Of a DNA stretch of 33,364 bases, positions 12,018 through 32,160 are shown piece by piece (position 1 is the stretch's first letter; each line of letters begins with the position of its first letter). Under the pieces are notes generated by a model, which worked only from the letters and a program-made list of their open reading frames with translations, did not search any database and had not been told where the DNA came from. The position numbers and the translations under genes are program-made. The stretch covers positions 44,002 through 77,365 of the forward strand of contig NZ_JQCL01000051.1 of assembly GCF_001438845.1 (NCBI RefSeq), read 5' to 3'. The DNA comes from Lactiplantibacillus xiangfangensis. Lineage in GTDB: Bacteria; Bacillota; Bacilli; Lactobacillales; Lactobacillaceae.

Positions 12018-12058
12018 TCTTTATATTGTCAATATGAAGAATTGGGGAAAGGCACATT

Positions 12059-12678: not shown

Positions 12679-12699
12679 AATTTGTATGTTGAGTTTCAA

Positions 12700-15065: not shown

Positions 15066-15067
15066 AG

Positions 15068-15805: not shown

Positions 15806-15824
15806 CATAAAATAATATAAACAG

Positions 15825-15851
15825 ATGAGTCCGGGACATAACTCATTTTTT
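15825..15851 (+). terminator. Rho-independent terminator after the response regulator
   Basis: ATGAGT (15825-15830) pairs with ACTCAT (15841-15846) around CCGGGACATA, followed by TTTTTT. It may originally be the outer end of the adjacent insertion sequence. Confidence 0.6.
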
Positions 15852-15853
15852 CG

Positions 15854-16231: not shown

Positions 16232-16285
16232 TATCGCAATGAACTTAGTTGGCTTTGCGCTTAATTAAACCTGGCAGATCGAGCA

Positions 16286-16313
16286 TTAGAATTGTCGCTA
16301 TCAGGACTATACT
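16286..16313 (+). promoter_or_regulatory. Weak promoter ahead of the LanF-like ABC transporter
   Basis: TATACT at 16308-16313 is a fair -10. TTAGAA at 16286-16291 with a 16-base spacer is a weak -35. Confidence 0.35.
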
Positions 16314-16344
16314 GTGCATGCGCATTTATAAATGAGGTATAAAA

Positions 16345-17253: not shown

Positions 17254-18020
17254 AACCATTGATGTATCAAGAATTTTTGAAGTTAAGATTTAAAAAGAGT
17301 ACATGGATTTCATTGATCATTGCTGTAGGCATGATGGTTTTGACTGGACTGACAACACTAAATGTCGGCAGTTCTGATAGTAAGTATTATTTTTCTTCTG
17401 CTTACGGTGGCTTCCAATGGTTCATTATCGTTTTAATTGCAATTAATGCCTCATCTATCACCTCAGAATTTCAATTTGGTACGATCAAGCATTTAGTCAT
17501 TCAAGCAGATAGCCGGTGGCGGGTATACTATATCAAATTATTGGCAATAAGCTGCTATAATTTTATCGGACATATTATAATCTTCCTGGCCGCTGTACTA
17601 ATCAAATTACTTTTATATCCGGGACTAGATTTATTCTCACATTATCACTATGGTAGTACAGTTATCGTTAATCTAATTCTGAACGGGGCGTTAGACTTCT
17701 TTCTTAGTTACCTTTTCATTGGCATGGTAACATTGATTGCTTGTATTAGTTCTAACAGTGCTGTGGCGGTTTCTGTGGGGATAGGTGTCGCATTTGCCGG
17801 AGAGGGATTGTCCAACATGTTATTATCCTCATTTCCAAGCATAATCCCAATAATGCGATGGAATCCATTTAACATGTTAAATTTCCAGCAACAATTTGCT
17901 TATCCAGAACATATTCATGATACCCATCTTCTGTTATCACAGATGGGTATTGGAATATTTGTTTGGAGCTGTCTATTCCTAGTACTTGGGCAATTGCTCT
18001 TTCAACGCAGAAAGATCTAA
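17250..18020 (+). CDS. ABC-2 type permease of the LanF-like transporter (LanE/BcrB-like)
   Basis: A 256-residue membrane protein with about six spanning segments, beginning MKPLMYQEFLKLRFKKST, a typical start for LanE/LanG and BcrB permeases. It is translationally coupled to the ATPase by a 4-base overlap. TSEFQFGTIKHLVIQ near 70-85 is the conserved cytoplasmic segment of this permease family. A second permease (LanG) is absent, so the transporter would be a homodimeric permease or incomplete. Confidence 0.82.
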   Translation: MKPLMYQEFLKLRFKKSTWISLIIAVGMMVLTGLTTLNVGSSDSKYYFSSAYGGFQWFIIVLIAINASSITSEFQFGTIKHLVIQADSRWRVYYIKLLAISCYNFIGHIIIFLAAVLIKLLLYPGLDLFSHYHYGSTVIVNLILNGALDFFLSYLFIGMVTLIACISSNSAVAVSVGIGVAFAGEGLSNMLLSSFPSIIPIMRWNPFNMLNFQQQFAYPEHIHDTHLLLSQMGIGIFVWSCLFLVLGQLLFQRRKI

Positions 18021-18091
18021 AAACATTAAAAAAATATGACGAAATCATCGCACCATTTAACCAGGTTTATTTTAGAAAGGAGATGGGTAAA

Positions 18092-18295
18092 ATGAATGAC
18101 ATTTTACGAATGCAGAAACTAAAAAATAAAGGAACAAAGAAAAATAGTGGTACCCACAGAAGTAACTTTAGCCTTCTTTGTTCTTTAGACCAATATCACA
18201 ACAATATTAGCTGCTTTGCAATTCAAACTAGTGATAAAATCTATTCAGTAACGACCTTGTGGGTTTTGACAACCGTTGAAGATGTGACTTTCTGA
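18092..18295 (+). CDS. Small Ser/Cys-containing ORF, possible lanthipeptide-like precursor or remnant (67 aa)
   Basis: ATG 18092 follows an excellent ribosome site, AGAAAGGAG at 18074-18082, 71 bases after the permease and before a strong terminator. This placement favours a real gene co-transcribed with the transporter. The product begins MNDILRMQKLKNKGTKKNSG and has SNFSLLC (24-30) and ISC (39-41). The start resembles the ILxLQxL leader motif of class III lanthipeptides, and S-x2-S-x2-C resembles their labionin motif. However, the C-terminal 25 residues are atypical and no LanKC or other modification gene is in the window. It could equally be an unrelated small protein or a frameshifted remnant. 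Confidence 0.45.
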   Translation: MNDILRMQKLKNKGTKKNSGTHRSNFSLLCSLDQYHNNISCFAIQTSDKIYSVTTLWVLTTVEDVTF

Positions 18296-18341
18296 ACGGC
18301 AAATTTCCGGTGTTTTACCGGAGACTTGCCGTTCAGTTTTG
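18292..18341. terminator. Strong terminator at the right end of the island
   Basis: CTGAACGGCAA (18292 on) pairs with TTGCCGTTCAG (to 18336), with inner CCGGT/ACCGG, then TTTTGTTT. It separates the rightward small ORF from the leftward rhomboid gene and includes the small ORF's stop region. Confidence 0.85.
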
Positions 18342-18363
18342 TTTAGCCCACTTATTAGGCTCA

Positions 18364-19101
18364 TTAAGGCAAATAGTCATTGAAGATGGTCCAGGTAAAA
18401 AGGACTAGCGTCAAACCAACGGCAAAGGTTGTGCGTAGCCACGATGGAACCCGCACAAAGTCGATTTCATCGATATCGAAGAAGAGGGCGGCCAACAGGA
18501 TGCCACCGATTAGCCCACCGAGGTGACCATAAATATTAACGCTTGGATCGATCAGGTTAAAGGCTAAGTTGACGACTAGTATCGAAGCCAATCGCTGACG
18601 GGCGCTTGGCGTAATTAAAGCAGCGTATACGATTAGCCCAAAAAGACTTGTGGAAGCTCCCGCACTTACCGTATTTTGTGAAAATAGGAAGCTGGTAAAG
18701 TTCCCAGCTAGGCCACTGAGCAGATAAACGCAGCCCATTCTAATTGAACCGATTTTTTGCTCAACCACTGGTCCGACTAAGTAGAGCGTGACCATGTTTA
18801 AGGCCAAGTGAATCGGGCTGACATGGACAAACATGGGGGTCCAAAGTCGCCAATAATCACCCGCGTTAATGAGCGGAACGTACGATGCCCCGTAGTTGAT
18901 AAGTACCAGGGGATTAATGCTGAAAATGTTTCCATATTGAATTTGCGAAAAAGTTTCAAGCAGGTACACGCCGATGTTGACGGCGAGTAGGAGGGTCGTT
19001 ATGATTGCAAAATCGTGACTACCGAGGTAAACCCGGTACCACCGCTTGAGGTTGGCCTTACGTTGATGCCAAGTGAGACCGTCATTTGATCGAAATGCCA
19101 A
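18364..19101 (-). CDS. Rhomboid-family intramembrane serine protease
   Basis: A 245-residue membrane protein with about six to seven segments. Rhomboid hallmarks are WTPMFVHVSPIHLALNM (Asn102 region), the catalytic serine in AGASTSLFG (S150) and the catalytic histidine in NIYGHLGGLIGG (H193). The residue after Ser is Thr rather than the common Gly. Start is TTG at 19099-19101, preceded by AGTAGGAA, since no in-frame ATG is nearby. GC and codon use match the core genome, so this gene marks the right flank of the island. Confidence 0.9.
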   Translation of the reverse strand: MAFRSNDGLTWHQRKANLKRWYRVYLGSHDFAIITTLLLAVNIGVYLLETFSQIQYGNIFSINPLVLINYGASYVPLINAGDYWRLWTPMFVHVSPIHLALNMVTLYLVGPVVEQKIGSIRMGCVYLLSGLAGNFTSFLFSQNTVSAGASTSLFGLIVYAALITPSARQRLASILVVNLAFNLIDPSVNIYGHLGGLIGGILLAALFFDIDEIDFVRVPSWLRTTFAVGLTLVLFTWTIFNDYLP

Positions 19102-19240
19102 AGAAGTTCCTACTTTCTTTCATGAGTTAATTTCAGCATACGGTAAATAGGAGAAATGGTGGTTGTGACGGGGTAAAGAATGAGTAAATTTATAGTAAGT
19201 ATGGGACAATGGTCAAATCAAGTATTTAAACGTATCTATC

Positions 19241-19288
19241 AATCACAGTATGTTATTGATTGTCACTGTGATTAAATTCGGTTATTCT
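19241..19288 (+). promoter_or_regulatory. Promoter with 9-bp inverted repeat upstream of the MacB-like transporter
   Basis: AATCACAGT (19241-19249) and ACTGTGATT (19265-19273) form a perfect 9-bp dyad. TTGTCA (19260-19265) and TATTCT (19283-19288) are spaced by 17 bases. The right half of the dyad lies in the spacer, so a repressor or activator could bind there. The regulator is not identified. Confidence 0.5.
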
Positions 19289-19358
19289 TTGAGGTATAGG
19301 GTTGTATTAATGATGACTTAATAGAAGATAAGGATTAATAGGGAAGGGATTAACTTAA

Positions 19359-21683
19359 ATGTTGGAACTTAAACATATCAAAAAATATTATCACGTTGGT
19401 GATTCGGTCACGAAGGCGTTGGATGACGTTTCCGTGGCCTTTCGTAAGCGTGAATTCGTCGCAATTTTAGGGCCGAGTGGGTCTGGGAAGACGACGATGC
19501 TAAACGGAATCGGGGGCTTGGATGTTTACGATTCTGGTGACTTGATCATCAAGGGTAAGTCGACGAAGGATTTTAAGGCGAGTGATTGGGATGCTTACCG
19601 GAATAATTCTGTTGGGTTTATTTTTCAAAGTTACAATATTATCGGCCATCTGAGTATTTTAGATAACGTTGAGATGGGGATGACCCTAAGTGGCGTTGAC
19701 AATGCCGATAAGAAGGCCAAAGCGGTGAAGGCCCTCGAACGGGTCGGCTTGGGACCACATATGAACAAAAAGCCCAACCAGCTATCTGGTGGTCAAATGC
19801 AACGGGTGGCGATTGCCCGGGCGATTGCAAATGATCCCGAGATCCTATTGTGTGACGAACCCACCGGTGCCTTGGATACTGAAACCAGTGTTCAGATCAT
19901 GGACTTAATCAAGGAACTCTCTGCTGAACGGTTAGTAATCATGGTGACCCATAATCCCGATCTAGCCCGCGAATATGCCAACCGGATCATTGAATTTGCG
20001 GATGGTAAGATTCAGCATGATTCGAACCCTTATGATGAAGAAGCGGCCGACGAAACGTTTGCGTTACAAAAGACAAAGATGACTTATTGGACCGCCTTAA
20101 AGCTATCCTTTACCAACATCAAGACGAAAAAGGGGCGGACGGCACTGACGGCGTTTGCTTCCAGTATCGGGATTATTGGGATTGCCGTCGTTTTATCGCT
20201 ATCCACGGGATTTCAAACCCAAGTGAATAAGACGCAAACGAATACGCTAGCGCAAATGCCAGTTACGATTTCACAGACGGCACAACAGCAGCAAAAGCAA
20301 TCTAATAAGATTAAAACGGCTAAGTCTTCAGAACAGTCGATCACGGCACGGGTCAGTCAAGCGGATAAAGCCACGCATACGAATAATTTAACGTCCAAGT
20401 ACTTAACGTACATCAAGAATATGTCGCCTAGTTTGAGTCATAACGTGACTTACACCTATAGCACGGGGATGAACTTGTTACGGCAAGTCGACGGTAAGAC
20501 CAAGTCGGTAACGTTCTCGAACAAAAATGGAAAGAATTCGACGGCAACGTCGATGTCATCTGCTATGAGCAGTATGTCCGGCGTGGCGACGTCGGTTTAT
20601 CCGACGAGTGGCAATGCTAGTTTTCTGAAGAAACATTACCGGGTCGTTTCCGGACAATACCCCACTTCAGAAAATGAGGTTGTCTTGATTGCTAACCGTG
20701 ACAACACGGTCAACGTTAATGCGCTGAAAAACTTAGGGTATTCGGCTAAGAGTGGTGATCAATTTAAGTTTAGTCAAATCGTGGGCACCACTTTGAAATT
20801 AGTGACTAATAATGACTACTATCAAAAGTTACCAACAGGAAACTATTTGCCAAACAAGGTGACGGATGCGTTGTACAATAAATCTAATAACCAAACAATT
20901 AAAGTTGTTGGGGTTCTGCGAGCAAAGACCAAGGATTCTGACAACGTGCTTGCTTCTGGGATCGCGTACAGTGATAAGCTAACGCAAAACATCATCAAGA
21001 CTAATCAGAATTCGGACATTGTAAAGGCCCAAAAAGACAGTGATACGAACGTGATGACTGGTGCGAAGGTTGATTCGGATGCGCGGCAAACGTTACTCAG
21101 TACCCTCGGTGGGTCAAGCACGCCCGCTAGTATCTTGATTTATCCGAACAGTTTCAAGAATAAGGATAAAGTTTTGAGTTACTTGGATAAATATAACAAG
21201 GGTAAGTCCAAGGCGGATAAAATCGTCTATACTGACTTAGCCGGCACCGTTTCTAGTTTAACCGGTGGTTTGATGGACGCGATTACTTATGTCTTGATTG
21301 CCTTTGCGGGAATTTCGTTGGTCACAAGTATGATCATGATTGCGATTATTACCTATACGTCGGTCTTGGAACGGACCAAGGAAATCGGAATTTTGAAAGC
21401 CTTAGGGGCGCGTAAGAAGGATATCACCCGAGTCTTCGATGCGGAAACAACGATTCTAGGTGTGGCTTCTGGGGTCTTAGGCGTGGTGATTGCGTGGTTA
21501 TTGACGTTCCCAGTCAACGCCGTTTTGAGCAATGTCACGGGGTTGAATAACGTGGCCCATTTGAATCCAATGCATGGGGTTATTTTGATCATCATTAGTA
21601 CCGTTTTGACGGTACTTGGTGGCCATATTCCAGCACGGATGGCAGCGAAGAAGGATGCTGCAACGGCTTTGCGGTCAGAATAA
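19359..21683 (+). CDS. MacB-like ABC transporter with fused ATPase and FtsX-type permease
   Basis: A 774-residue fusion. The ATPase (about 1-225) has Walker A GPSGSGKTT (38-46), signature LSGGQMQRVA (142-151) and Walker B ILLCDEPTGALD (162-173). A first membrane segment at about 260-280 is followed by a large extracytoplasmic domain rich in Ser, Thr, Lys and Asn. Three C-terminal spans and the FtsX-like segment RTKEIGILKALGARKKDITRVF-like region (near 680-700) complete it. MacB/LolD-type transporters act as mechanotransmitters for peptides, lipoproteins or toxins. No adaptor protein or two-component partner is adjacent. Substrate unknown. Confidence 0.9.
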   Translation: MLELKHIKKYYHVGDSVTKALDDVSVAFRKREFVAILGPSGSGKTTMLNGIGGLDVYDSGDLIIKGKSTKDFKASDWDAYRNNSVGFIFQSYNIIGHLSILDNVEMGMTLSGVDNADKKAKAVKALERVGLGPHMNKKPNQLSGGQMQRVAIARAIANDPEILLCDEPTGALDTETSVQIMDLIKELSAERLVIMVTHNPDLAREYANRIIEFADGKIQHDSNPYDEEAADETFALQKTKMTYWTALKLSFTNIKTKKGRTALTAFASSIGIIGIAVVLSLSTGFQTQVNKTQTNTLAQMPVTISQTAQQQQKQSNKIKTAKSSEQSITARVSQADKATHTNNLTSKYLTYIKNMSPSLSHNVTYTYSTGMNLLRQVDGKTKSVTFSNKNGKNSTATSMSSAMSSMSGVATSVYPTSGNASFLKKHYRVVSGQYPTSENEVVLIANRDNTVNVNALKNLGYSAKSGDQFKFSQIVGTTLKLVTNNDYYQKLPTGNYLPNKVTDALYNKSNNQTIKVVGVLRAKTKDSDNVLASGIAYSDKLTQNIIKTNQNSDIVKAQKDSDTNVMTGAKVDSDARQTLLSTLGGSSTPASILIYPNSFKNKDKVLSYLDKYNKGKSKADKIVYTDLAGTVSSLTGGLMDAITYVLIAFAGISLVTSMIMIAIITYTSVLERTKEIGILKALGARKKDITRVFDAETTILGVASGVLGVVIAWLLTFPVNAVLSNVTGLNNVAHLNPMHGVILIIISTVLTVLGGHIPARMAAKKDAATALRSE

Positions 21684-21698
21684 AAAATAGTGAAATGA

Positions 21699-21735
21699 AA
21701 AAGGTGCCGGTAAAAATTTTGCCGGCACCTTTTAT
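21699..21735. terminator. Convergent terminator
   Basis: AAAAGGTGCCGG (21699-21710) pairs perfectly with CCGGCACCTTTT (21722-21733). It follows the transporter gene. Confidence 0.85.
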
Positions 21736-21831
21736 TGGCTCTTTGTGGGTCTTACTTAATTCTATTGTTCAGTTCGTTTCGGAATTGACTGTCCTCGGAA
21801 GCGTTGATTAAGCAAATGTCTTATCACCTGT

Positions 21832-23106
21832 TTATCTTAACTTGAATACTAACGTCCCATTTCGAGCGGAACCATATTGATTAACATTTAAAATTGGTGC
21901 CTTTTGAGTAGTGGAGTCAGGTACGTACTTAATTTGCGAACTATTGTTATCAAGGAGGTCTAAAATACCAATGCTGGCCTTAGCCTGTGGTTTGTATCCC
22001 TTAAATGTCGGCAAGGTTACAGGCTCCATGGTTGAGGTACCATGTGAAGAATCGTAAACACTATTAAACGAACTAATCCCCAGAACTTGTGGCAATCCCG
22101 TAGCGCTCTCTTCACTTGAGACAAAATAAACTGGCATCTTAACCGTCATGTTCATATACTTGGTCAGCTGTGGGTTAGCAGGAAGGTAACCTGAAGTAAC
22201 AGCGATTCGCGCGGCTGTTGATTCTACTAGATTCAGATAATCTGGTGTGGCGGAATTATCCATGACAGCCCCAAAGTGATTGTGCGTACCCAATTTGTCG
22301 TCCAGTTTTTGTGCCATGCTTAAGTAATCTGGATAATTCCAATTGTGAGCTTTCGCATAAGCAATTACAGAGTCAAAAAATGTTTTTAACCCATCGATTT
22401 TGTATGAGTCATTTGGTAAATCACCATTCAATTGTTCGTTACTGTCATTATAAGTTGCAATAAAATCGGTCGATGCAATATTCATTGCTGATTTGTCATA
22501 GCTGGTAGGAGAACCGAGTCCTTTATAAACGCTGCGTTGTCCCTTGTCTCCAGCCATAATATCGGTTAAATTAGCACCACCGGCATCCGCGTGGCCAAGT
22601 CCCAGTGCATGGCCCATTTCATGAGCAACGATGTCATCCCAAGCGGCTTGTTTTGACGTATCGAAAGTGGCTGCGTTAATGGCTGTTACTCTGAGAATAT
22701 AGTCAGTTTGTGCATAGCCACCTAAATTCGAATCAGAATATTGAGCGTATGTAACATCTGCATCTTTGGCATCATTCGTTATTTGGACAATTGTCTTACC
22801 CGCCGCCTTGTTCCAGAAAGCAGCAGCATTCGAGATGGCTTGACGTAGCTGACTCGACGATTGACTCGGTGCATAAGCCATCAGTATATGATTGTCATTC
22901 ACTAGATACACGCCACCAATATAAATTCCATTCTTAACTTTCGTATCAGAAGTGTAATACCCGCGTGCCTGTTGAGTTGTTGATATATCGTTATAGGGAT
23001 TATTTACCTGAGTATCAGCTCGTACTGGTTGTCCGGCCAGGGATGTGAAAAACAAAAAAATTCCAAATAGTGCTGAGAATCTCAATGCTAACTTTTTGAA
23101 TTTCAA
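21832..23106 (-). CDS. Secreted zinc metalloprotease, matrixin-like
   Basis: I place the start at the TTG of 23104-23106, because GGAGG lies 9 bases upstream; the frame continues upstream through that site. The product is 424 residues with a signal peptide (KFKKLALRF, a hydrophobic core, then cleavage near PVRA-DTQ at about residue 31). The catalytic motif HEMGHALGLGH is at 162-172, with DIMAG (Met-turn, M184) about 12 residues later, as in matrixins/metzincins. The C-terminal half is not recognised. The gene follows the acetyltransferase by about 25 bases and is likely co-transcribed. Confidence 0.88.
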   Translation of the reverse strand: MKFKKLALRFSALFGIFLFFTSLAGQPVRADTQVNNPYNDISTTQQARGYYTSDTKVKNGIYIGGVYLVNDNHILMAYAPSQSSSQLRQAISNAAAFWNKAAGKTIVQITNDAKDADVTYAQYSDSNLGGYAQTDYILRVTAINAATFDTSKQAAWDDIVAHEMGHALGLGHADAGGANLTDIMAGDKGQRSVYKGLGSPTSYDKSAMNIASTDFIATYNDSNEQLNGDLPNDSYKIDGLKTFFDSVIAYAKAHNWNYPDYLSMAQKLDDKLGTHNHFGAVMDNSATPDYLNLVESTAARIAVTSGYLPANPQLTKYMNMTVKMPVYFVSSEESATGLPQVLGISSFNSVYDSSHGTSTMEPVTLPTFKGYKPQAKASIGILDLLDNNSSQIKYVPDSTTQKAPILNVNQYGSARNGTLVFKLR

Positions 23107-23130
23107 TGTCTTTTCCTCCAAAAATAAAAA

Positions 23131-23994
23131 TTAAATAACTGTGATTCTAATATCCTGAGATATTACCTGATCAAACTCAGGCTGGATGAACAGGACTGTT
23201 ATAGTTGTTTCTCCATTACCCACCGCAGTAATCTTCCCTTCGTGTGAGATTGTGATAATCGAATCATTACTTGAGCTAAAACTATAATGGCCACCTCGTG
23301 TATTAGGTGGGAGCGTCATGGCCGCAACTTGTTCAGTATCGCCTACATGTAGTTGCTTAGTGTCAATGTTAGTGATTAGTCGACGCGCTTTGAACTCATT
23401 ATCAGGGATGTCTGAATGAGCATCATCCGTTTGACGAATGACTCTGGCAGGATTCCCTCCAACAATTACAGAACCATCTGGGAAGGAATGCGTAACGACC
23501 GCTCCCGCAGCAACAATAGTTTTGTTTCCTAAAGTCACGCCACCCATAATAGTTGCTCCTGCACCAATCCAACAATCAGCACCAATGGTGATTGGCTTGG
23601 TGAACATCTTTCCAAGCAAGCGACTCTCTGCGTGCAATGGATGATAAACCGTAATAAATTGGCATCTCGGTCCAACGAGAGTTCGACTGCCAATTTTAAT
23701 CGTTCCATGATCCATAAAATCACAGTCGTAATTAATCATTGCTCCGTCACCAAGAAAAGTATTTACGCCAAAACCCATTCTAATTGGAGTAAATACTAGG
23801 TTCGTTTTATTGGCGCGGCCAAATAGTTTTTCTTTAATAGTTTCTGGATCCATGTTTTGGTCACCGTAATTATATTTAAAGCTCAATTGACTTGCTTCAT
23901 TCATAATCCGGGCGATCTCTGGATCGGCAACATCATACCATCCTCCATTTTTCATTTTGTTAAATTCAGTCAGGTCCTTAGCTACTTCAGTCAT
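23131..23994 (-). CDS. Sugar/galactoside O-acetyltransferase with C-terminal Ig-like (Big_2) domain
   Basis: A 287-residue two-part protein. Residues 1-190 are a left-handed beta-helix O-acetyltransferase of the LacA/Maa type: N-terminal helix, hexapeptide repeats, ITVYHPLHAESR (candidate catalytic His at 118 or 121), CWIGAGATIMGGVTLGN, then GGNPARVIR. Residues about 205-287 look like a bacterial Ig-like domain (Big_2): hVGDTEQVAA..., SFSSSNDSIITIS, GKITAVGNGETTITV. Such domains are normally extracellular, but there is no signal peptide. Start ATG follows AGAAGGGG. Cytoplasmic acetyltransferases normally end near residue 190-200. Confidence 0.88.
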   Translation of the reverse strand: MTEVAKDLTEFNKMKNGGWYDVADPEIARIMNEASQLSFKYNYGDQNMDPETIKEKLFGRANKTNLVFTPIRMGFGVNTFLGDGAMINYDCDFMDHGTIKIGSRTLVGPRCQFITVYHPLHAESRLLGKMFTKPITIGADCWIGAGATIMGGVTLGNKTIVAAGAVVTHSFPDGSVIVGGNPARVIRQTDDAHSDIPDNEFKARRLITNIDTKQLHVGDTEQVAAMTLPPNTRGGHYSFSSSNDSIITISHEGKITAVGNGETTITVLFIQPEFDQVISQDIRITVI

Positions 23995-24240
23995 TGCTAC
24001 CCCTTCTGTCCAAATGATTTATAGTCCATCCAATTTGAAGTATAGCAGAGAAGAAGTACCGTAAACTCGTTTAAAAGCACCTGAGGTATCAGTTTATACA
24101 CGAAACTATATAAGCCTATAAACGAAATCTTTGAATATCGCTTTCTTCTAAGCTTAGGCTTCATTAATTTACCTGAATGATCTTGCTTTAATTGAGAGAG
24201 AATACAATGATACTTGTAAGTTAGCTCTTACAAATTTAAA
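23995..24240. promoter_or_regulatory. Divergent promoter region, acetyltransferase/protease versus bacteriocin
   Basis: About 245 bases between the two units. TACAAT at 24203-24208 is the best rightward -10, with a weak -35 near 24181-24188. TTGTAAG (24214-24220) and CTTACAA (24227-24233) form a perfect 7-bp dyad around TTAGCT just ahead of the bacteriocin frame. No LytTR-type direct repeats were recognised. Confidence 0.4.
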
Positions 24241-24462
24241 ATGAATGATGTGCTTGGGTATATGAATAGTCAAAAAGTTTTAATTAGTTCAGAACTATCA
24301 AATGTGATTGGTGGAAAATTGGTAAAGCTATATACAGCTGAACCATATACCTTCTATCGGGATACACGAACTAAGAAAATTGTGATGCGTCAGACGACCG
24401 GCTATTCTGCTCATTTACAACATGTAATTGCAGATGGCTGGGTAAGATCAGCGCATTTATAG
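24241..24462 (+). CDS. Double-glycine-leader bacteriocin-like peptide
   Basis: A 73-codon frame whose first 25 residues end in SSELSNVIGG, the classical double-glycine leader pattern (Leu/Ile at -7, -4 region, GG at 24-25) cut by C39 transporters. The predicted mature part is 48 residues, cysteine-free and without the YGNGV motif. It has eight Lys/Arg against three Asp/Glu and ends DGWVRSAHL. ATG 24241 has no clear ribosome site; ATG 24262 would give an 18-residue leader, also normal, but likewise lacks a good site. An enterocin A-type immunity gene starts 24 bases after the stop. I do not recognise a named bacteriocin. Confidence 0.72.
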   Translation: MNDVLGYMNSQKVLISSELSNVIGGKLVKLYTAEPYTFYRDTRTKKIVMRQTTGYSAHLQHVIADGWVRSAHL

Positions 24463-24486
24463 AATTGTGTTAGGGGGATTAGCAAC

Positions 24487-24768
24487 ATGGCTAAATCAGC
24501 AAAGATGCAACTGGTAGAATTGATAGATACCGCACTTAGTAATAAAACTATTTCTAAGGCTGAAGTGGTCGCTTTAACAAAGGCACAAGAAGGGTTAAGT
24601 AAGCATCAATCGGATACTATGATTGCATCAAAATTAAAAACAGAATTATCATTGTTAGGTGCTCAACAGAAACTTTCTCCACAGTTAGTGGATTTGCTAA
24701 CATGGCTATCCAAGTCTTATCTAGGATGGGGAAGACGAGGAATGGGAATTACAAATCTATTTGTGTAA
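24487..24768 (+). CDS. Bacteriocin immunity protein, enterocin A immunity type
   Basis: A 93-residue, all-helical, Lys-rich protein behind AGGGGG. Segments LVELIDTALSNKTISKAEV, LTKAQEGLSKHQSDTMIASK and LTWLSKSYLGWGRR fit the four-helix-bundle EntA_Immun family. By family knowledge, such proteins protect the producer against a class II bacteriocin, often by acting at the mannose PTS receptor. Its place after a GG-leader peptide makes it the likely cognate immunity protein. The last residues, GITNLFV, are less typical. Confidence 0.78.
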   Translation: MAKSAKMQLVELIDTALSNKTISKAEVVALTKAQEGLSKHQSDTMIASKLKTELSLLGAQQKLSPQLVDLLTWLSKSYLGWGRRGMGITNLFV

Positions 24769-24795
24769 TAAGAAGCCCGAAGGATCTTTATCAAT

Positions 24796-24844
24796 AAAAC
24801 TATCTGAGGGCCGAGCGAAGCGACATCCTCAGATAGTTTTTTGT
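24796..24844. terminator. Terminator after the immunity gene
   Basis: AAAACTATCTGAGG (24796-24809) pairs with CCTCAGATAGTTTT (24827-24840). Symmetric A and T runs make it usable in both directions. Confidence 0.85.
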
Positions 24845-24899
24845 GGTGATTGCATTTAAAAAAGTCGCCCGGAAGTGATTACCGGACGACCAAAGTTAA

Positions 24900-25340
24900 C
24901 TATAAGATTTCACCAACGAATTCACCCTTAGGTAGGGTATTGAAGTCGTACGTTTCAAAGTCTGCAACTTGCTTAGTGTACCAGTGCATGCTTTCAGTAA
25001 TCATTAGATTAACCGCTTCGTCTTTTTCTTGCAAGACTAAGATGGGGAGGTTCCGCATGGTAGCGACACCGAGTTCGTAAGCGGTCCCCGAATCAAGATT
25101 TTTGGCTTCAAAGTCTAAGACGGTGACAATTACGTCAGCGGCGGCAATTTGATCCATGTCGCGGTGAAAAACTTCAGTGGCCCATGGCTTGGTGAATTGT
25201 TCGGCCTGCGCATCTTGGTGCAACCGGGGCGAATAAAAATCCTTAACCGTCGGATTTTTGGCGAGGGCCTGTTCGAGTCGGATGACGCGGTCGACCTGTT
25301 CGGGACTGAAAAAGGGACTTGCAACGTATACTTGTGCCAT
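24900..25340 (-). CDS. Nucleoside 2-deoxyribosyltransferase
   Basis: The start is ATG 25338-25340 with AAGGAG 9 bases upstream, giving 146 residues; an in-frame ATG further upstream lacks a site. The enzyme exchanges bases between 2'-deoxyribonucleosides, a purine/pyrimidine salvage route typical of lactobacilli. Family features are VYVASPFFSPEQVDR at the N-terminus, ADVIVTVLD near 68-76 and DSGTAYELGVA with the nucleophilic glutamate (E89, D83 nearby). The conserved C-terminal segment NLMITESMHW is also present. Single-gene unit. Confidence 0.92.
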   Translation of the reverse strand: MAQVYVASPFFSPEQVDRVIRLEQALAKNPTVKDFYSPRLHQDAQAEQFTKPWATEVFHRDMDQIAAADVIVTVLDFEAKNLDSGTAYELGVATMRNLPILVLQEKDEAVNLMITESMHWYTKQVADFETYDFNTLPKGEFVGEIL

Positions 25341-25488
25341 AAAAGGGAACTCCTTACGACAAGCAATTGAGCCTGTCACGTATTTTGATCACATGGGTGC
25401 TATTTTACGGATTAATTAAGTCACCGTCAATACTAATCAGGGTCAGATTGGTCGAGTTTAAGAAAATCGCTATTCTGGAACCTTTTAC

Positions 25489-25519
25489 TTGCTCTAACCC
25501 CCACTAGTAGGGGTAAAGT
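25489..25519 (+). promoter_or_regulatory. gabD promoter with 18-bp dyad in a long spacer (MerR-type candidate)
   Basis: TTGCTC (25489-25494) and TAAAGT (25514-25519) are 19 bases apart, longer than normal. The spacer holds a dyad with centre ACTAGT and outer arms ACCCC (25497-25501) and GGGGT (25510-25514), with one mismatch pair. A 19-base spacer with a central dyad is typical of promoters controlled by MerR-family activators. Confidence 0.45.
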
Positions 25520-25583
25520 ATAAATTGGGTAGCTGTTATTAAAAGCCAAAGTCTAACTTTGGTCTAAAAAAGGAGAATTTATT

Positions 25584-26951
25584 ATGGCCTATCAAACAAT
25601 CAATCCATACAATAATAAAGTTTTGAAGAAATTTGAAAACGCTTCCAATAGCGAATTGGAAGCCACGTTAGCGACCGGACACGCGCTTTATCAGCAATGG
25701 CGTAAGGAACCCGCAACTTCACGACAAGCAACGCTGCATAAAGTGGCGGACCTGTTACGGGAACACCGGCACACCTTAGCAGTGACCGTGACGGAGGAAA
25801 TGGGGAAGCTGATTGGTGAATCGGAAGCGGAGGTTGACCTTTGTGCCGACATTGCGGACTACTTTGCCGACCACGCGGATGAATTCCTACAACCAACGCC
25901 ATTGACGACTTCAATCGGGGATGCCCATTATGAAAAGCAGTCCTTGGGTGTTTTAGTTATGGTTGAACCATGGAATTTTCCATACTATCAAATTATGCGG
26001 GTCTTTGCGCCGAACTTTATGATTGGGAATCCACTGCTATTGAAGCATGCATCCAATACACCAAGTAGTGCCGAAGCCTTCGTTGATATCGTTAAGGAAG
26101 CGGGCGCACCAGCGGGCAGTTTGACTAACATGTTCATTAGTTACGACCAAGTGGCTAAAGCCATCGCTGACCCTCGAGTGGCCGGGGTTGCCTTGACCGG
26201 TTCCGAACGGGGCGGAGCGTCTGTGGCTAAGGAAGCCGGCGCTAACCTGAAAAAGTCAACCTTGGAATTAGGCGGGAATGATCCGTTTATCGTCTTAGCG
26301 GATGCTGACATGGCAAAAGTTAAGCAGTGGGCACCACAAGCCCGGTTATCCAACGCGGGGCAAATCTGTGCGGCTTCAAAGCGGTTTATCGTGATGCCAG
26401 ATAAGTATCAAGAATTGTTAGCGATTTTAAAGGAAGCCTTTGAGAACGTTAAAATGGGCGACCCGCTAGATCCTGAAACGACGCTAGCGCCATTAACCTC
26501 AATGCACGCTAAGGAGACTTTGCAAAAGCGGGTCGACGCAGCGGTGGCGGCTGGCGCGCACGTTTATTACGGTAACGAACCCGTTGACCTTCCCGGGGCG
26601 TTCTTCCAGCCAACGATTTTGACGAACGTGACTAAGGATAATCCGTCCTACAACCAAGAATTATTTGGCCCGGTTGCCACGGTTTACGTGGTTCAATCTG
26701 AAGCAGAAGCGATTGCCTTGGCCAATGATTCTAGTTACGGCTTAGGGAGTGCCATCTTCTCTGAAGACGTGGCGCACGCCGAAGAAGTTGCTAGTCAGTT
26801 AGAGACCGGGATGACGTTTATTAACCGCGCCTGGGCTACTTTGCCAGAACTGCCATTCGGTGGGGTCAAGAATTCTGGTTATGGGCGTGAAATGTATCGC
26901 CTAGGGTTTGACGCTTTTGTTAATGAACATTTAGTTGTTAGTGCCAATTAA
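25584..26951 (+). CDS. gabD: Succinate-semialdehyde dehydrogenase (NAD(P)+)
   Basis: A 455-residue aldehyde dehydrogenase superfamily member. The catalytic motif has Glu in TLELGGNDPF (E228) and the nucleophilic Cys in SNAGQICAASKRF (C262). Cofactor-binding segments EPWNFPYYQ and ALTGSERGG are intact. Sequence style matches lactobacillus GabD, which oxidises succinate semialdehyde to succinate, though other aldehydes are possible. ATG follows AAAGGAGAA. It has its own promoter and a very strong terminator. Confidence 0.85.
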   Translation: MAYQTINPYNNKVLKKFENASNSELEATLATGHALYQQWRKEPATSRQATLHKVADLLREHRHTLAVTVTEEMGKLIGESEAEVDLCADIADYFADHADEFLQPTPLTTSIGDAHYEKQSLGVLVMVEPWNFPYYQIMRVFAPNFMIGNPLLLKHASNTPSSAEAFVDIVKEAGAPAGSLTNMFISYDQVAKAIADPRVAGVALTGSERGGASVAKEAGANLKKSTLELGGNDPFIVLADADMAKVKQWAPQARLSNAGQICAASKRFIVMPDKYQELLAILKEAFENVKMGDPLDPETTLAPLTSMHAKETLQKRVDAAVAAGAHVYYGNEPVDLPGAFFQPTILTNVTKDNPSYNQELFGPVATVYVVQSEAEAIALANDSSYGLGSAIFSEDVAHAEEVASQLETGMTFINRAWATLPELPFGGVKNSGYGREMYRLGFDAFVNEHLVVSAN

Positions 26952-26996
26952 AAGAATGATGCTGTTTTAACACTAGTTGTTATCAGCAATTAAACG

Positions 26997-27045
26997 AATA
27001 ACGCGCAATGCAACCCGAATCAAGCGGGTTGCATTGCGCGTTATT
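26997..27045. terminator. Strong convergent terminator
   Basis: A 21-bp perfect stem, AATAACGCGCAATGCAACCCG (arm 26997-27017), with its complement at 27025-27045 and a 7-base loop AATCAAG. It lies between the convergent gabD and aldo/keto reductase genes. Confidence 0.75.
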
Positions 27046-27058
27046 AAGTTATCCACGA

Positions 27059-28036
27059 TTACCAAGCATACGCTTCTGGGGCCGCACCACCGGGGCCAGG
27101 AAAGATGTCGTCTAGTTCAGCCAAAACGTCGGGTGATAAGTTGATGTCTAGGGCGTGAACGATGTTTTCCAATTGGCCAACGGTTCGCGGTCCAATAACG
27201 GGTGCCGTCACGGCCGGATTGGCTAATAACCAAGCGATGGCAACGTTTGATTCCGTTTCTTCTAGGTCAGCGCAGAGGTCGGCGTAACGTTGGAGTTGGG
27301 TACGTTGGGCGGGAGTGAGTCGCTTAACGGCGGCGGCCCGCTTGCTCTGGGGATCGGTATTGCCATCGAGTAAGTGGTCCGCTAGCAAGCCGCCACCGAG
27401 GGGACTCCACGTGAGAATGCCCATGCCTAATTCCTGTGCGGCTGGTAGGACTTCAAGTTCGGGCAACCGGCATAGTAAGTTATAACGGTGTTGTTCGCTG
27501 ACGAGTCCTAAGAAGTGACGGTTGTCAGCCGCGGCCTTGGCGTAAGCTAGGTGCCGGGCACCAAAGTTACTTGACCCAACGTAATAAGCTTTACCTTGTT
27601 GAATCACGTTTTCTAAAGCGCCATAAACTTCGTTCCAGTTAATTCGGTGATCAATGTGGTGCATCTGGTAAAGCTCAACGTGATCAGTTTGAAGGCGCTT
27701 TAGGGAGGCGTCTAGGTGCCGGTAGATTTTATACGCCGAGATTCCGCGGGCATCATTAGGACCGTCGACAGGGTCATCCATGGGCTCGTACGTCTTCGTT
27801 GCTAAAACAACCCGTTCGCGGCGCTGATTTCCCTGGGCGAACCAGTTACCAATGATTTTTTCAGTTGCGCCCTGGCCGTAAACATCCGCGGTGTCAAAAA
27901 AGTTGATGCCGAGTTCTAAAGCTCGATCCATAATTTTAAAGGCTTCGTCCTGACTAGTTCGGGCACCAAAGTTCATCGTGCCTAAACAGAGTCGGCTGAC
28001 GCGCATGCCAGTTCGACCTAAATAAGTGTATTGCAT
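27059..28036 (-). CDS. Aldo/keto reductase
   Basis: A 325-residue NADPH-dependent TIM-barrel oxidoreductase. The catalytic tetrad is visible: D48 and Y53 in FFDTADVYGQG, K81 in ATKTYEP, and H126 in YQMHHID. Cofactor-binding residues appear near 270-295 (APVIGPRTVGQLENI). Start ATG at 28036 follows TTAGGAGT. Subfamily resembles the YghZ/YajO-type general aldehyde reductases; the physiological substrate is unknown. Confidence 0.9.
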   Translation of the reverse strand: MQYTYLGRTGMRVSRLCLGTMNFGARTSQDEAFKIMDRALELGINFFDTADVYGQGATEKIIGNWFAQGNQRRERVVLATKTYEPMDDPVDGPNDARGISAYKIYRHLDASLKRLQTDHVELYQMHHIDHRINWNEVYGALENVIQQGKAYYVGSSNFGARHLAYAKAAADNRHFLGLVSEQHRYNLLCRLPELEVLPAAQELGMGILTWSPLGGGLLADHLLDGNTDPQSKRAAAVKRLTPAQRTQLQRYADLCADLEETESNVAIAWLLANPAVTAPVIGPRTVGQLENIVHALDINLSPDVLAELDDIFPGPGGAAPEAYAW

Positions 28037-28385
28037 AAGATCACTCCTAATTTTTTAATTGGTTATGTAACTTACATTAAACGTAGCAGAGCTGATGCGA
28101 CGGTGCAATTGGTTTAATAGCTAAAAAGCCTGTAAAAATGATACAATCGATGGTAATTCTTTGATTTGTTGCGAATATGGTGTATAAATTAGATTATGCT
28201 TGTCTGCTTTAAGCGCTTTCGCCAGCTTGAATAAGTGGAAACTGGCTATGCAGCTGGATTGTATTTAGCGTAAAATGTTTCCCCAATTAATAAAAACGTT
28301 CAGGATATCTCTCAAATTTTTAATAATTAAAGCAATATTTGCGGTAAAGTAGAGTAAGACAATAATTTTGATGGAGGCCAATTGC
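28037..28385. other. Intergenic region between aldo/keto reductase and small gene
   Basis: About 350 bases with divergent promoters and no gene. A cre-like sequence TTTAAGCGCTTTCG (28208-28221), with AAGCGCTT core, might bind CcpA, but matches the consensus imperfectly. TAAAGT-type -10 candidates occur near 28346 ahead of the small gene. Confidence 0.4.
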
Positions 28386-28577
28386 ATGCTAGTACAAGTT
28401 GAAAATGCCGACCATAAACATTTGACGGCCCTTGATTTAAAACGTTTCTTAAGTCGGTATTCGGATGAAGAGCTGGAAGACATTTTGATTAAACAAGATG
28501 ATCTTGAGTTTCACGCGGCTTTCCTACAAACGACCCAACCAGTTCAAACGCCGACCTTGTATCTCGAGGAGTATTAA
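28386..28577 (+). CDS. Small acidic protein of unknown function (63 aa)
   Basis: ATG 28386 follows GGAGG at 28373-28377. The 63-residue product is acidic and probably helical: LTALDLKRFLSRYSDEELEDI, then many Gln/Thr near the end (TTQPVQTPTLYLEEY). No membrane segment, signal or Cys. A terminator follows about 120 bases later. I do not recognise the family. Confidence 0.6.
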   Translation: MLVQVENADHKHLTALDLKRFLSRYSDEELEDILIKQDDLEFHAAFLQTTQPVQTPTLYLEEY

Positions 28578-28696
28578 TGAGAGGCTAAAAGTTCGGTACG
28601 AGCTATTAAAACTGATATGCTCAGGATAGCTGATCCAGTTAAGATTAGCGAGCGGTTGACCGTGAACAAGACGGGCTTAAAAACTAAGCGTAATAG

Positions 28697-28733
28697 AACA
28701 AGGAAATCGGTGGGTACCGGTTTCCTTGTTTTA
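28697..28733 (+). terminator. Rho-independent terminator
   Basis: AACAAGGAAA-CGG (28697-28710) pairs with CCGGTTTCCTTGTT (28717-28730) with one bulge, followed by TT. Confidence 0.7.
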
Positions 28734-28746
28734 GTGCGGTTAATTT

Positions 28747-28777
28747 TTGTAACAATTCTGTAAAATAATTGTACAAT
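28747..28777 (+). promoter_or_regulatory. Amidohydrolase promoter with small dyad
   Basis: TTGTAA (28747-28752) and TACAAT (28772-28777) flank a 6-bp inverted repeat ACAATT/AATTGT (28752-28772). The 19-base spacing is slightly long. The nearby LysR gene is a candidate regulator. Confidence 0.4.
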
Positions 28778-28822
28778 GAAGGTGAGTTGAGAGCTCGGTC
28801 CATCGAGAGAGGAAGTTAATGA

Positions 28823-29762
28823 ATGACACTTGCACAAGAGATTCCTATCGACGTGTTTGCGCACGTTGTGACGCCACAGTTCTATCAAAAAATGTTGGCG
28901 ATTGATGCTAAAATTCCAGAAAAAGCCAGTTATATTCAAAATCAAGCGTTGGTTGATTTCGATTATCGGCGGCAACACCGAACGATTCCGACCCGCCAAG
29001 TTATCAGTATGATGAATATAAATCCTGAAGACTACGTCGACTCAGAGCAGGCCTTGGCGCTGTGTCAATCTGCAAATCAGGAATTAGCCGCTTTAGTGAC
29101 GACGCATCCGGATCAGTTTTGTGGGGCCGTTGCAATGGTGCCGATGAATAACGTTGCAGGGGCGCGAGCGATAATGCGTGATCAGGTGAAGTCAACGACG
29201 AACTTGCTAGGTATTCAGCTATTTACCCGTGCCCTCGGCCGTAGTATTGCGGACCCCTGAATTTGATGGAGTATTTAAGACCGCTGCAGAGCTAGGACTG
29301 CCCATTTGGCTACATCCCGTTTTTGATGATCGTAAGCCTGACAACAATATTGTTTTTAGTTGGGAATATGAATTAACCCAAGCAATGCGGGAATTAGTTG
29401 TCGGTGGGGTCTTTCAGCGTTATCCCGATTTGAAGATCATTGTTCATCACGCGGGGGCGATGGTGCCGTTTTTCGCTGGCCGCATCAATGCCATTATGAC
29501 GCCGGGTCAATCGGCTGATTTCCATAAGTTTTACGTGGATACGGCTATCTTAGGGAATACCGCCGCGTTAAATCTAACGGTGGACTACTTTGGTACCGAC
29601 CACGTCCTATTTGGGACCGACGCACCGTTTGGTATTTTACCCGTGGGAGCTAGCAGCAAAATTGCCATCGCAATTGAGCACTTACCGTTAAGCACGGCTG
29701 AAAAGGCGCAAATCTTATTCTCTAATGCAAACCAACTATTAGCCTTGTCGTCAAATTCTTAA
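28823..29762 (+). pseudogene. ACMSD-like amidohydrolase interrupted by a frameshift
   Basis: Two adjacent frames together make one amidohydrolase of about 312 residues. The first (28823-29260, 145 codons) starts MTLAQEIPIDVFAHVVTP and ends ALGRSIADP. The second continues EFDGVFKTAAELGLP through the metal-site segments LPIWLHPVF, IIVHHAGAMVPFF and LFGTDAPFG. Both halves match the ACMSD/decarboxylase family. The break is in a run of four C at 29254-29257; with three C the frame reads straight through (ADPEFDG). In the first motif Phe replaces the first His of the usual HxH (DVFAHV). A base-call error is possible. Confidence 0.85.
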
Positions 29763-29775
29763 TAAGCTTAAATGA

Positions 29776-29811
29776 AAGGTCGCGTTTCTGAAAATTCGGA
29801 AACGCGACCTT
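29776..29811. terminator. Convergent terminator
   Basis: AAGGTCGCGTTTC (29776-29788) pairs with GAAACGCGACCTT (29799-29811). It lies between the amidohydrolase and LysR genes, which converge. Confidence 0.85.
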
Positions 29812-29825
29812 ATTAGTATTGGTGA

Positions 29826-30704
29826 CTATGACTTGTATTTGGTTTTTAAAGTATCGATTAAAGCTTGGGCCGGTCCACTCAAGGGCACCCCTTGCCGCCA
29901 AATCAGAACGTGTTGCAGGTGGTGAGCTGGGGTAAATGGGACGAACGTTAGTTGACTCGTTGCTGGTAAGGTAACGCCCTCAATGCACACAAGTAGTCCT
30001 AACCCGGCGGCTGCTAGGTAAAAGGAATTGGTCAGTAAATTATATTCGCCAACGATGTGCAAGGGCGCAATCGGTTGTAACCAATCGTTTAAAGCCGTTT
30101 TAACTAATGACCGGTGCGGAATGATCAGCGGACGCCCCGCCAAATCAGAAACCTGAATATTGGGTCGCTTGGCCATGGGATCGGTTGCGGGTAATGCCAC
30201 ACCCCAACGATCACGGATGGAGAGTGGCAAGGCGTGGTACTTGGCGGTGTTGATTGGAGTTGAGACGACGCCAATTTCGAGTAGCCCCCGGTCGAGGCGT
30301 TCCTTAATCGTGTTGCCATCCGCATCGTGCATGTCGATAATGACGCTGGGATGAGCCCGTTGAAAATCAACCAGTGCGGGTGAAAGTTGTGTAGTGACCG
30401 ATGATTCAACGCACCCGATGTTAATGGGTCCCGTCAGCTCGTTGTTATTACTGTTCTTAACGAGCTGATTGGCGTTGTCGAGTTCAGTCAGGATTTGTTG
30501 GACATGAAGCTGGTAAGTTAAGCCGGCCTTAGTCAGTTTCATTTGATGATGTTCACGGGTGAATAATGGGATTTCAAGTTGGGCCTCTAACTGTTGAATC
30601 TGGCGGCTGAGTGTGGGCTGGGCGACGTGGAGCTCGCGGGCAGCCGCTGAGATTGTGCCTAAGCGTGCAATGGTTAAAAAGTAGTGTAAAATTCGGGTTT
30701 CCAT
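29826..30704 (-). CDS. LysR-family transcriptional regulator
   Basis: Start chosen at ATG 30702-30704, with GTGAGG 6 bases upstream, giving 292 residues; an upstream extension in frame lacks a site. The N-terminal winged helix reads METRILHYFLTIARLGTISA, AARELHVAQPTLSRQIQQLE. The effector-binding domain (about 90-290) follows with the usual length. It is divergent from the acetyltransferase/ABM pair and convergent with the amidohydrolase, so its target may be either. Effector unknown. Confidence 0.92.
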   Translation of the reverse strand: METRILHYFLTIARLGTISAAARELHVAQPTLSRQIQQLEAQLEIPLFTREHHQMKLTKAGLTYQLHVQQILTELDNANQLVKNSNNNELTGPINIGCVESSVTTQLSPALVDFQRAHPSVIIDMHDADGNTIKERLDRGLLEIGVVSTPINTAKYHALPLSIRDRWGVALPATDPMAKRPNIQVSDLAGRPLIIPHRSLVKTALNDWLQPIAPLHIVGEYNLLTNSFYLAAAGLGLLVCIEGVTLPATSQLTFVPFTPAHHLQHVLIWRQGVPLSGPAQALIDTLKTKYKS

Positions 30705-30916
30705 GATTAGCCTCACTATTCTCTTTTGGCATTGATATGTATACATTATAGGACTTTTACATAATTAAAATCACGGATTATGATGATTAGTGTTAGGAAG
30801 GGACGGCCCATTGAAAACGCCAGTTCAATTAAATAGGGACGCGACCAAGTCACAGCATTAGATGAAATTAATTGATGAAGGTTTAGAACTGTAAATTTAA
30901 AAAGAAGGGTGACGTT

Positions 30917-31504
30917 ATGACAATGACGGAGCATGAAAAATTACTAGCTGGAAAAGATTATGATTACCGTGATCCAGCCTTACAGGCCATGTTGGCGAAG
31001 GGGCGGCGACTGGTTCAAGTGATTAATACCACAACTGATTTGGCGACTCGTCAAACCGCAATCACCGATTTGTTTCACCAAGTGGGCCAGCGGGTGACTT
31101 TGAATGGCCATTTTGAAGCCATTTATGGGGACCACATCTCTTTAGGTGACGATGTCTTTATCAATGGCAACTGCTTTTTTCAAGACTCCAATCGAATCAC
31201 GCTCGGTAACCGGGTGATCATTGCGCCCGACACGAAGTTTTACTGTGGGGAACACGCGCTGGATGCGACCAAGCGCTTTGGCACCCGACCGGATGGTAGC
31301 CGCTATTTAATAACGCACACGGCACCAATTACGGTTGAAAACGATGTGTGGATTGGTGGCAACGTGACCGTCATTGGTGGCGTCCATATTGGGAATAACG
31401 TGGTGATTGCCGCTGGGGCGGTCGTCACGCGTGACATCCCCGATAATTGTGTGGCCGGCGGTGTGCCTGCCAAGGTCATTAAGCCCTTACCAGCGCTAAA
31501 GTGA
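30917..31504 (+). CDS. Sugar O-acetyltransferase (maltose/galactoside type)
   Basis: A 195-residue hexapeptide-repeat acetyltransferase. Family segments are EKLLAGKDYDYRDPAL near 5-20, YGDHISLGDDVFINGNC, the catalytic-His region YCGEHALD, and VWIGGNVTVIGGVHIGN followed by GGVPAKVI. It acetylates sugars such as maltose or glucose by acetyl-CoA; specificity unclear. ATG 30917 follows AGAAGGGTGA. It has the normal family length, unlike the longer Ig-domain version at 23131. The stop overlaps the next gene's start region, so the two are translationally linked. Confidence 0.9.
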   Translation: MTMTEHEKLLAGKDYDYRDPALQAMLAKGRRLVQVINTTTDLATRQTAITDLFHQVGQRVTLNGHFEAIYGDHISLGDDVFINGNCFFQDSNRITLGNRVIIAPDTKFYCGEHALDATKRFGTRPDGSRYLITHTAPITVENDVWIGGNVTVIGGVHIGNNVVIAAGAVVTRDIPDNCVAGGVPAKVIKPLPALK

Positions 31505-31512
31505 GGTGCGTG

Positions 31513-32160
31513 ATGAAGCCTATAAGCAAACCACCGATTTTTCGCCATTATCAGCTGACCATTGAGGCTCGTGACCGGGCAGCGTTCGTTGCCGGGGGAA
31601 CGGCTAATTTGTTGACTTCACTGCGGACTGAGCCGGGAACGTTAGCGATGTTTGCGACGCATGCGGATAGTGCGGGTACGCGCAACGAAGTGTTTGAGCT
31701 ATATCAAGACGAAGTGAGTTACCAGATTCACGCGCAGTCACCACAGTTTAAGCGCTATGGCCAGTTAGCGCAGCAAGTTGTCAGGAAGCATCAAATGGCC
31801 GAATTAAAACCGCAAGTTTTAGTTTCAACTGCTGATGGCTTTGAGGTGAGTGGTGAGACTACCAATCAATTATTGTTGACCGAATTCACCGCTGGCGCTC
31901 AGTGGCTGATGGCGTTAAAAGCGGATTGGAACCAGTTGCACAATGGCAGCCTAATTCAATACGCGGCGACGTTGCCAGCGACGCCGACTAGCTGGGTGTT
32001 GCTAAGTATTTATCCGAATGCTACGGTGCTCAGTGCGGGTCAAAACAAGTTGCAAAGTTGGTTAGCCGCTGAAGCTATCACGACCGTCCGGCAACGCGTT
32101 TTAGCCATCGATACAATGATTAGTCAACCCAATGTGCAGTACGTTTCTTCGAATGAGTAA
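31513..32160 (+). CDS. ABM-domain (antibiotic biosynthesis monooxygenase/quinol monooxygenase-like) protein
   Basis: Start taken at ATG 31513 behind GAGGTG (31503-31508), 215 residues; a GTG at 31501 is also possible. The N-terminal about 90 residues resemble the YgiN/ABM ferredoxin-like fold: HYQLTIEARDRAAF, LRTEPGTLAMFATHAD, FELYQDEVSYQIHAQSPQFK. The C-terminal half (about 95-215) is not recognised and may be a second, diverged ABM-like domain. Coupled to the acetyltransferase. Function in lactobacilli is not established. Confidence 0.75.
   Translation: MKPISKPPIFRHYQLTIEARDRAAFVAGGTANLLTSLRTEPGTLAMFATHADSAGTRNEVFELYQDEVSYQIHAQSPQFKRYGQLAQQVVRKHQMAELKPQVLVSTADGFEVSGETTNQLLLTEFTAGAQWLMALKADWNQLHNGSLIQYAATLPATPTSWVLLSIYPNATVLSAGQNKLQSWLAAEAITTVRQRVLAIDTMISQPNVQYVSSNE

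Follow-up and report, generated by a model that had tools for sequence, protein, structure and literature searches.

Lactococcins A and B (LcnA and LcnB) are encoded on plasmids of Lactococcus by genes for precursors with a double-glycine (GG) leader, which are directly followed by the immunity genes lciA and lciB, respectively. One such plasmid (L027) carries, in this order, genes for a peptide cleavage/export ABC transporter, an HlyD protein, a lactococcin-family bacteriocin, an immunity protein, a second lactococcin-family bacteriocin and lciB. We take the two bacteriocins to be LcnA and LcnB, which is consistent with the lciB label. In the available text of PMC10783117, the structure 8HFS is described as lactococcin A with LciA on the mannose PTS, and pore formation at this PTS is given as the killing mode of lactococcin A. 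The available part of PMC11403280 names the same killing mode for the peptide group and sorts the non-pediocin mannose-PTS peptides into five groups, including LcnA-like and LcnB-like ones; garvicin Q-like bacteriocins are described there as another such group. According to the same part, LcnA, LcnB and LcnZ are active against L. lactis with a very narrow spectrum, and HB19 and HB20, two peptides compared with LcnB, were inactive when synthesized. Kinship with these peptides therefore implies neither killing nor a need for protection in a lactobacillus.

We analyzed a stretch of 33,364 nucleotides from the genome of Lactiplantibacillus xiangfangensis (the window) that contains a small precursor gene and an immunity-type gene next to it. 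Judged by sequence, this is a divergent subclass IId (non-pediocin) lactococcin/LciA pair, and it adds a divergent lactobacillar member with an LciA-like partner to the lactococcin family of mannose-PTS-type bacteriocins. The gene order is that of the lcn plasmids. Unlike the lcn systems, the pair lies on a 77-kb draft contig and not on a known Lactococcus plasmid, and it comes without a detected C39 exporter or LcnD match. Word searches of the literature, which would not find a peptide by its sequence, listed no paper evidently on this peptide.

Anatomy and family of the pair

The pair and its immediate surroundings comprise the following features (positions in the window).

21832 to 23121, minus strand: metalloprotease-like protein with a HExxHxxGxxH stretch and a hydrophobic N-terminus (PF02031, 27.4 bits, cut-off 25; PF00413, 24.7 bits, cut-off 24)
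23131 to 23994, minus strand: maltose-acetyltransferase-like hexapeptide protein with a C-terminal Big_2 (Ig-like) domain
24214 to 24233, plus strand: inverted repeat TTGTAAG-N6-CTTACAA just 5' of the precursor, unchanged in the congener G273
24241 to 24462, plus strand: lactococcin-family precursor ORF, 73 codons from ATG 24241 and 66 from the likelier ATG 24262, with a PF04369 match
24262 to 24315, plus strand: GG leader ending in ELSNVIGG, 18 residues long with ATG 24262 as the start; in the alignment it pairs with the GG leaders of LcnA, LcnB and the homologue in the congener G227
24316 to 24459, plus strand: putative mature lactococcin-like peptide, 48 residues, cationic, without cysteine, assigned by alignment and by profile and shuffle comparisons
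24487 to 24768, plus strand: putative immunity gene of the LciA/EntA_Immun type, 93 codons, with a PF08951 match, a profile match to LciA and a strong predicted ribosome site
24796 to 24842, plus strand: predicted hairpin terminator downstream of the pair, stem plus T-run, from folding against shuffles

A first-pass annotation of this DNA had described a 73-codon peptide with a leader ending in ELSNVIGG, a cationic, cysteine-free mature part of 48 residues without YGNGV, and a gap of 24 bases between the precursor stop and the ATG of the following gene. The ORF and its translation confirmed this anatomy. In the window genome the frame is open and the GG site is intact. For the mature peptide we calculated a net charge of about +5, a pI of 9.99 (about 10.0) and a mass of 5651.5. 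The GG leader and the linear cationic core without YGNGV are the sequence features of the LcnA/LcnB-like subclass IId in PF04369, whereas the YGNGV motif of class IIa (pediocin-like) peptides is absent from the ORF.

The precursor frame contains two in-frame ATGs, at 24241 and 24262. With the 16S tail sequence that we presume for this organism, the predicted pairing was +1.3 kcal/mol for ATG 24241, -4.1 kcal/mol for ATG 24262 and -10.2 kcal/mol for the immunity gene; 13 of the 14 other ORFs scored in the window reached -5.5 kcal/mol or stronger, and one stood at -1.0. The precursor start is therefore likelier to be 24262 than 24241, owing to its stronger pairing to the 16S tail, and the ribosome site is predicted to be weak at either ATG. 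The G273 copy keeps the equivalents of both ATGs, and conservation therefore does not choose between them.

The first-pass annotation had also stated that the mature sequence matches no bacteriocin, and this did not hold. The homology search that it proposed did yield a bacteriocin family match, and the peptide is not an unrecognized one. The precursor matched the Pfam family PF04369 (Lactococcin) with 34.2 bits (E 2.8e-8; cut-off 23.1), while no NCBIfam family was matched. Alignment of the mature peptide with LcnB scored 97, compared to a maximum of 47 among 5000 shuffles, and identity was about 38% to LcnB and 29% to LcnA. The mature part shares with both the pattern Y-x-x-T-x-T-x-K ... QT ... 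GW. A tblastn search of a plasmid collection with the precursor returned 21 records at E up to 10, 19 from Lactococcus and 2 from Streptococcus, every one below 60% identity. Lactococcin-family bacteriocins of Lactococcus appeared there at 38% identity (E 3e-7), and among the matches listed 18 Lactococcus records were annotated "lactococcin family bacteriocin" and the 2 Streptococcus records "hypothetical protein". A single-sequence phmmer search of solved structures with the precursor found nothing. A profile built from the cores of the window peptide, the G227 homologue and the two Streptococcus proteins, with LcnA and LcnB left out (A7), found the LcnA chain 8hfs_A at E 1.5e-4, with the next match at 0.3; after addition of LcnB (A6) the LcnA match stood at E 2.3e-4. 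The A6 profile also gave a weak match to GarQ around the GW motif (E 0.5), which was lost without LcnB, since A7 gave no GarQ match up to E 10. Across wider-family genomes, PF04369 matches at E 0.01 were reached in 12 of 397 (own genome counted) and the cut-off in 6 of 397.

The protein encoded at 24487 to 24768 was said in the earlier annotation to be EntA_Immun-like. Indeed, it scored 23.5 bits against PF08951, narrowly over the cut-off of 22.1, and it thus shares a Pfam family with the enterocin A-type immunity proteins. Its AlphaFold model has four helices and low confidence (pLDDT 62.7). The structure prediction that had been suggested earlier for peptide and immunity protein was of low confidence for the precursor too (pLDDT 56), which makes that model uninformative. 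Against solved structures, single-sequence phmmer found nothing for the immunity protein, and tblastn against plasmids gave one weak Nocardia match (E 0.8). A profile of the window protein and five same-genus homologues, without LciA (A5), ranked LciA first (8hfs_B, E 2.6e-4; 5lfi_A, E 3.8e-4; next match 0.18), and none of its 13 matches up to E 10 was a chain named enterocin A immunity protein. Since A7 leads to LcnA and A5 leads to LciA, the two window partners point to the two partners of complex 8HFS. The PF04369 match, the LcnB alignment, the A7 match to LcnA and the LciA match are the grounds on which we regard the locus as a divergent subclass IId lactococcin/LciA pair. The earlier view of a class II GG precursor with an adjacent immunity gene is thereby borne out by the family matches of both genes, and the gene at 24487 to 24768 would be the immunity gene cognate to the precursor.

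The terminator that the two genes were proposed to share was recovered as well. The hairpin has 15 pairs followed by a T-run. For the stretch 24790 to 24848 the folding energy is -22.8 kcal/mol (z -4.6), a value matched by 1 of 200 shuffles. A simple terminator scan of the region with a loop limit of 8 bases found none. In its folding, the inverted repeat at 24214 to 24233 does not stand out from shuffles (71 of 200 as good) and is therefore not evidence of function. A promoter scan gave 2 sites against 3.3 expected. We dropped an argument from promoter conservation because homology to G273 begins only at 24191.

Genus comparison and exporter search

Precursor homologues were present in 3 of 21 genus genomes, namely the own genome (G000), its nearest congener G273 (91% identity) and G227 (42%, frame open). 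In G273 the precursor frame contains 2 in-frame TAA codons. Immunity homologues were more widespread (7 of 21 genomes), the one in G312, close to the edge of a contig, being limited to 35 of 93 residues. Between the window and G273 the immunity gene differs by 3 nonsynonymous and 5 synonymous changes (pN/pS 0.18) and has no stop; the precursor, counted from the second ATG with the two stop codons left out, differs by 4 nonsynonymous and 3 synonymous changes, and its pN/pS of 0.39 is, at such tiny counts, not clearly neutral. We also scanned the DNA surrounding the immunity homologues of G071, G149, G125 and G312 with a profile search that reads through stops. No precursor-like match there was better than E 1.8, and the broken G273 precursor was recovered by this search at E 7e-27. 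G071 and G227 share flanking DNA; at the site where G227 has precursor and immunity gene, G071 has the immunity gene alone, without a detectable precursor. The order of precursor and immunity-type gene is found in G227 and in the Lactococcus plasmids that we opened. The neighboring deoxyribosyltransferase gene has a close orthologue (86% or more) in 7 of 21 genus genomes, 2 of which carry the pair at a distance of less than 1.5 kb from it.

The first-pass annotation had cautioned that the peptide would be made only if a C39 transporter elsewhere exports it, and this caution proved apt. A search for PF03412 (C39) gave no match in the own genome, whereas 8 of 14 control genomes and 6 of 21 genus genomes were positive. 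All 85 matches listed for LcnC in the own genome start at LcnC residue 145 or later, and therefore none spans the first 144 residues, the N-terminal stretch where C39 is expected. Nor was a C39 match obtained in G273 and G227, which likewise have a precursor homologue. LcnD had no match in the own genome, which shows little as the search had no positive control. A dedicated C39 ABC exporter with its accessory protein (LcnC and LcnD) was accordingly not found; both are needed for production, not for membership in the peptide family. The own assembly is a draft of 103 contigs (99.98% complete), and a plasmid-borne exporter could be missing from it. Since no C39 exporter was found in the own genome, production is doubtful, and the precursor is probably not exported. 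We also considered an anti-association of precursor and C39. With 3 precursor genomes and 6 C39 genomes among 21, zero overlap is expected by chance about a third of the time, and therefore none is claimed.

The genus comparison suggests that the immunity gene outlasts both bacteriocin and exporter here. Immunity genes that lack their bacteriocin are on record elsewhere: for a strain of Streptococcus mitis, cibC is termed an orphan immunity gene (PMC13059744).

EntA_Immun matches at E 0.01 numbered 3 to 7 per genome in all 21 genus genomes, next to the C39 matches in 6 of 21. In G227 a further GG-leader peptide ORF lies just 3' of the lactococcin-like pair (L001:2155-2385), with a weak ComC match below the cut-off. 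On contig C98 of the own genome (L086:8299-9358) we observed a GG-leader peptide ORF with a PF10439 score of 21.5 bits (below the cut-off of 27.1), a second small GG-containing ORF upstream and an Rce1-like gene (PF02517, 55.8 bits) downstream; this locus may be an orphan two-peptide bacteriocin.

Genomic site and present role of the pair

The window matches the G273 contig (L025) in the blocks 7696-11656, 18347-21732, 24191-30857 and 30853-31998. The blocks 11657-18346 and 21733-24190 have no counterpart there, and the pair itself is common to both. Block 11657-18346 encodes a helix-turn-helix regulator, a GHKL histidine kinase (13752-15065), a LytTR regulator (15068-15805) and an ABC transporter (16345-18020; ATPase and ABC-2 permease), and may be a peptide-sensing or immunity-transport module. 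GHKL kinases and LytTR regulators belong to types with a role in class II bacteriocin control. In the window, both genes sit 8 kb upstream of the pair and not beside it, and the ORFs listed around the kinase gene included no GG-leader peptide. Block 21733-24190 holds the metalloprotease-like and acetyltransferase genes, where G273 has about 325 unrelated bases. The fusion of a hexapeptide acetyltransferase with Big_2 (23131-23994) looks unusual, as the enzyme is apparently cytoplasmic.

Between the acetyltransferase gene and the precursor lies an 11-base direct repeat with a period of 22 bases (24095-24127; TATACACGAAA / TATAAACGAAA). A 22-base period is a spacing of the kind that LytTR regulators use. 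The repeat ends more than 100 bases 5' of either start, in DNA absent from G273. It is the sole such site in the window, with a pattern derived from the site itself, and its half-sites are no commoner than chance. Comparable direct repeats occurred in 14 of 1000 shuffles and in 8 of 253 window stretches including the site itself. A regulatory link of the pair to the kinase and LytTR genes was not supported, the block being absent from the G273 contig and the repeat being weak against these controls.

By analogy with the family, a C39 ABC exporter would cut the precursor after GG and release the 48-residue peptide. The peptide would then bind IIC/IID of the mannose PTS on sensitive Gram-positive cells and wedge the Core and Vmotif domains apart, so that a pore would form, and the immunity protein would plug this pore from the cytosol in the owner cell. 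As a possible receptor, the own genome encodes four EII-Sor genes, one with a GGQGxxG stretch, which the Man-PTS motif given in the available part of PMC11403280 resembles. For the own genome we infer that the peptide is not produced and that the neighboring protein confers immunity. As no C39 exporter was found, the pair would at present most likely serve to protect the cell from lactococcin-type peptides through the immunity protein, and the precursor would be an orphan that is probably not exported. Altogether, we consider it quite probable that a lactococcin A/B-type precursor and an LciA-type immunity protein form an orphan pair here that is kept mainly for immunity.

A complete and produced bacteriocin, an active weapon that is perhaps quorum-controlled and exported by another transporter or by a C39 protein on a plasmid or missed in the draft, would also account for the open ORF, the GG leader, the terminator and the immunity partner. 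A draft of 103 contigs leaves room for it, and the second GG-leader peptide gene beside an Rce1-like (PF02517) gene in the own genome, the GHKL kinase, LytTR regulator and ABC transporter of the window and the period-22 repeat upstream of the precursor would fit as well. However, the own genome gave no C39 match, and neither did G273 and G227; the precursor is broken in G273, and the ribosome site of the window copy is predicted to be weak. The regulatory points are weakened by the absence of block 11657-18346 from the G273 contig, by the lack of a GG-leader peptide around the kinase, and by a repeat that lies more than 100 bases from either start in DNA that G273 lacks and that has similar repeats in 8 of 253 window stretches. 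We therefore regard production as rather unlikely. GG-leader peptides also include pheromones, and with sensing-type kinase and LytTR genes 8 kb upstream the peptide might be a secreted signal (inducing peptide) instead of a killer. This is very unlikely, since its 48-residue mature part matches the lactococcin family and the adjacent gene is of the immunity type, while kinase and regulator lie apart from the pair and are missing from the G273 contig. Finally, EntA_Immun matches in 21 of 21 genus genomes, and homologues of the window immunity gene without a precursor, would suit a chance ORF beside a stand-alone immunity gene. Such an origin is hardly conceivable given a PF04369 match at E 2.8e-8, an LcnB alignment score reached by 0 of 5000 shuffles, and the recurrence of the same gene order in G227 and the Lactococcus plasmids opened. 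An orphan pair kept mainly for immunity is thus the reading that we prefer.

Preproproteins with a lactococcin core

The pair led us to preproproteins outside Pfam and NCBIfam in which the same core stands behind a different N-terminus. A lactococcin core was found at the C-terminus of proteins of 134-155 residues (lengths depend on the start chosen) on plasmids of Streptococcus suis and S. dysgalactiae and in three other Lactobacillales genomes (L123-L125). The latter three were drawn from matches in 6 of 395 genomes, the others being the own genome, L126 (four internal stops) and L127 (a partial match). The loci, each a preproprotein with the small ORF that follows it, are:

L028:2785-3500
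L029:2497-3250
L123:1093-1887
L124:1201-1982
L125:1264-1979

None of the five preproproteins passes a cut-off in Pfam or NCBIfam. A literature search on Sec-dependent lactococcin-like bacteriocins listed no paper evidently on these proteins, which does not show them to be unpublished. Among the small ORFs, that of L125 scored 49.0 bits against EntA_Immun (over the cut-off of 22.1), those of L029 (18.5 bits) and L124 (15.7 bits) stayed below it, and those of L028 and L123 gave no match at E 0.01. The L029 ORF is annotated "bacteriocin immunity protein".

All five preproproteins have a hydrophobic, signal-peptide-like N-terminus, which suggests export by Sec, and share a segment around SE(A/V)...I-x-(T/S)-(D/E)-x-D-(I/V)-P-E. 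The lactococcin core might thus be used with two unrelated export routes, one by GG leader and C39 and one by a signal-peptide-like N-terminus, and the window peptide might mark an exchange of leaders between them; we put this forward tentatively and hold it to be doubtful. The YTAEPY stretch of the window peptide is present in 3 of the 5 preproproteins.
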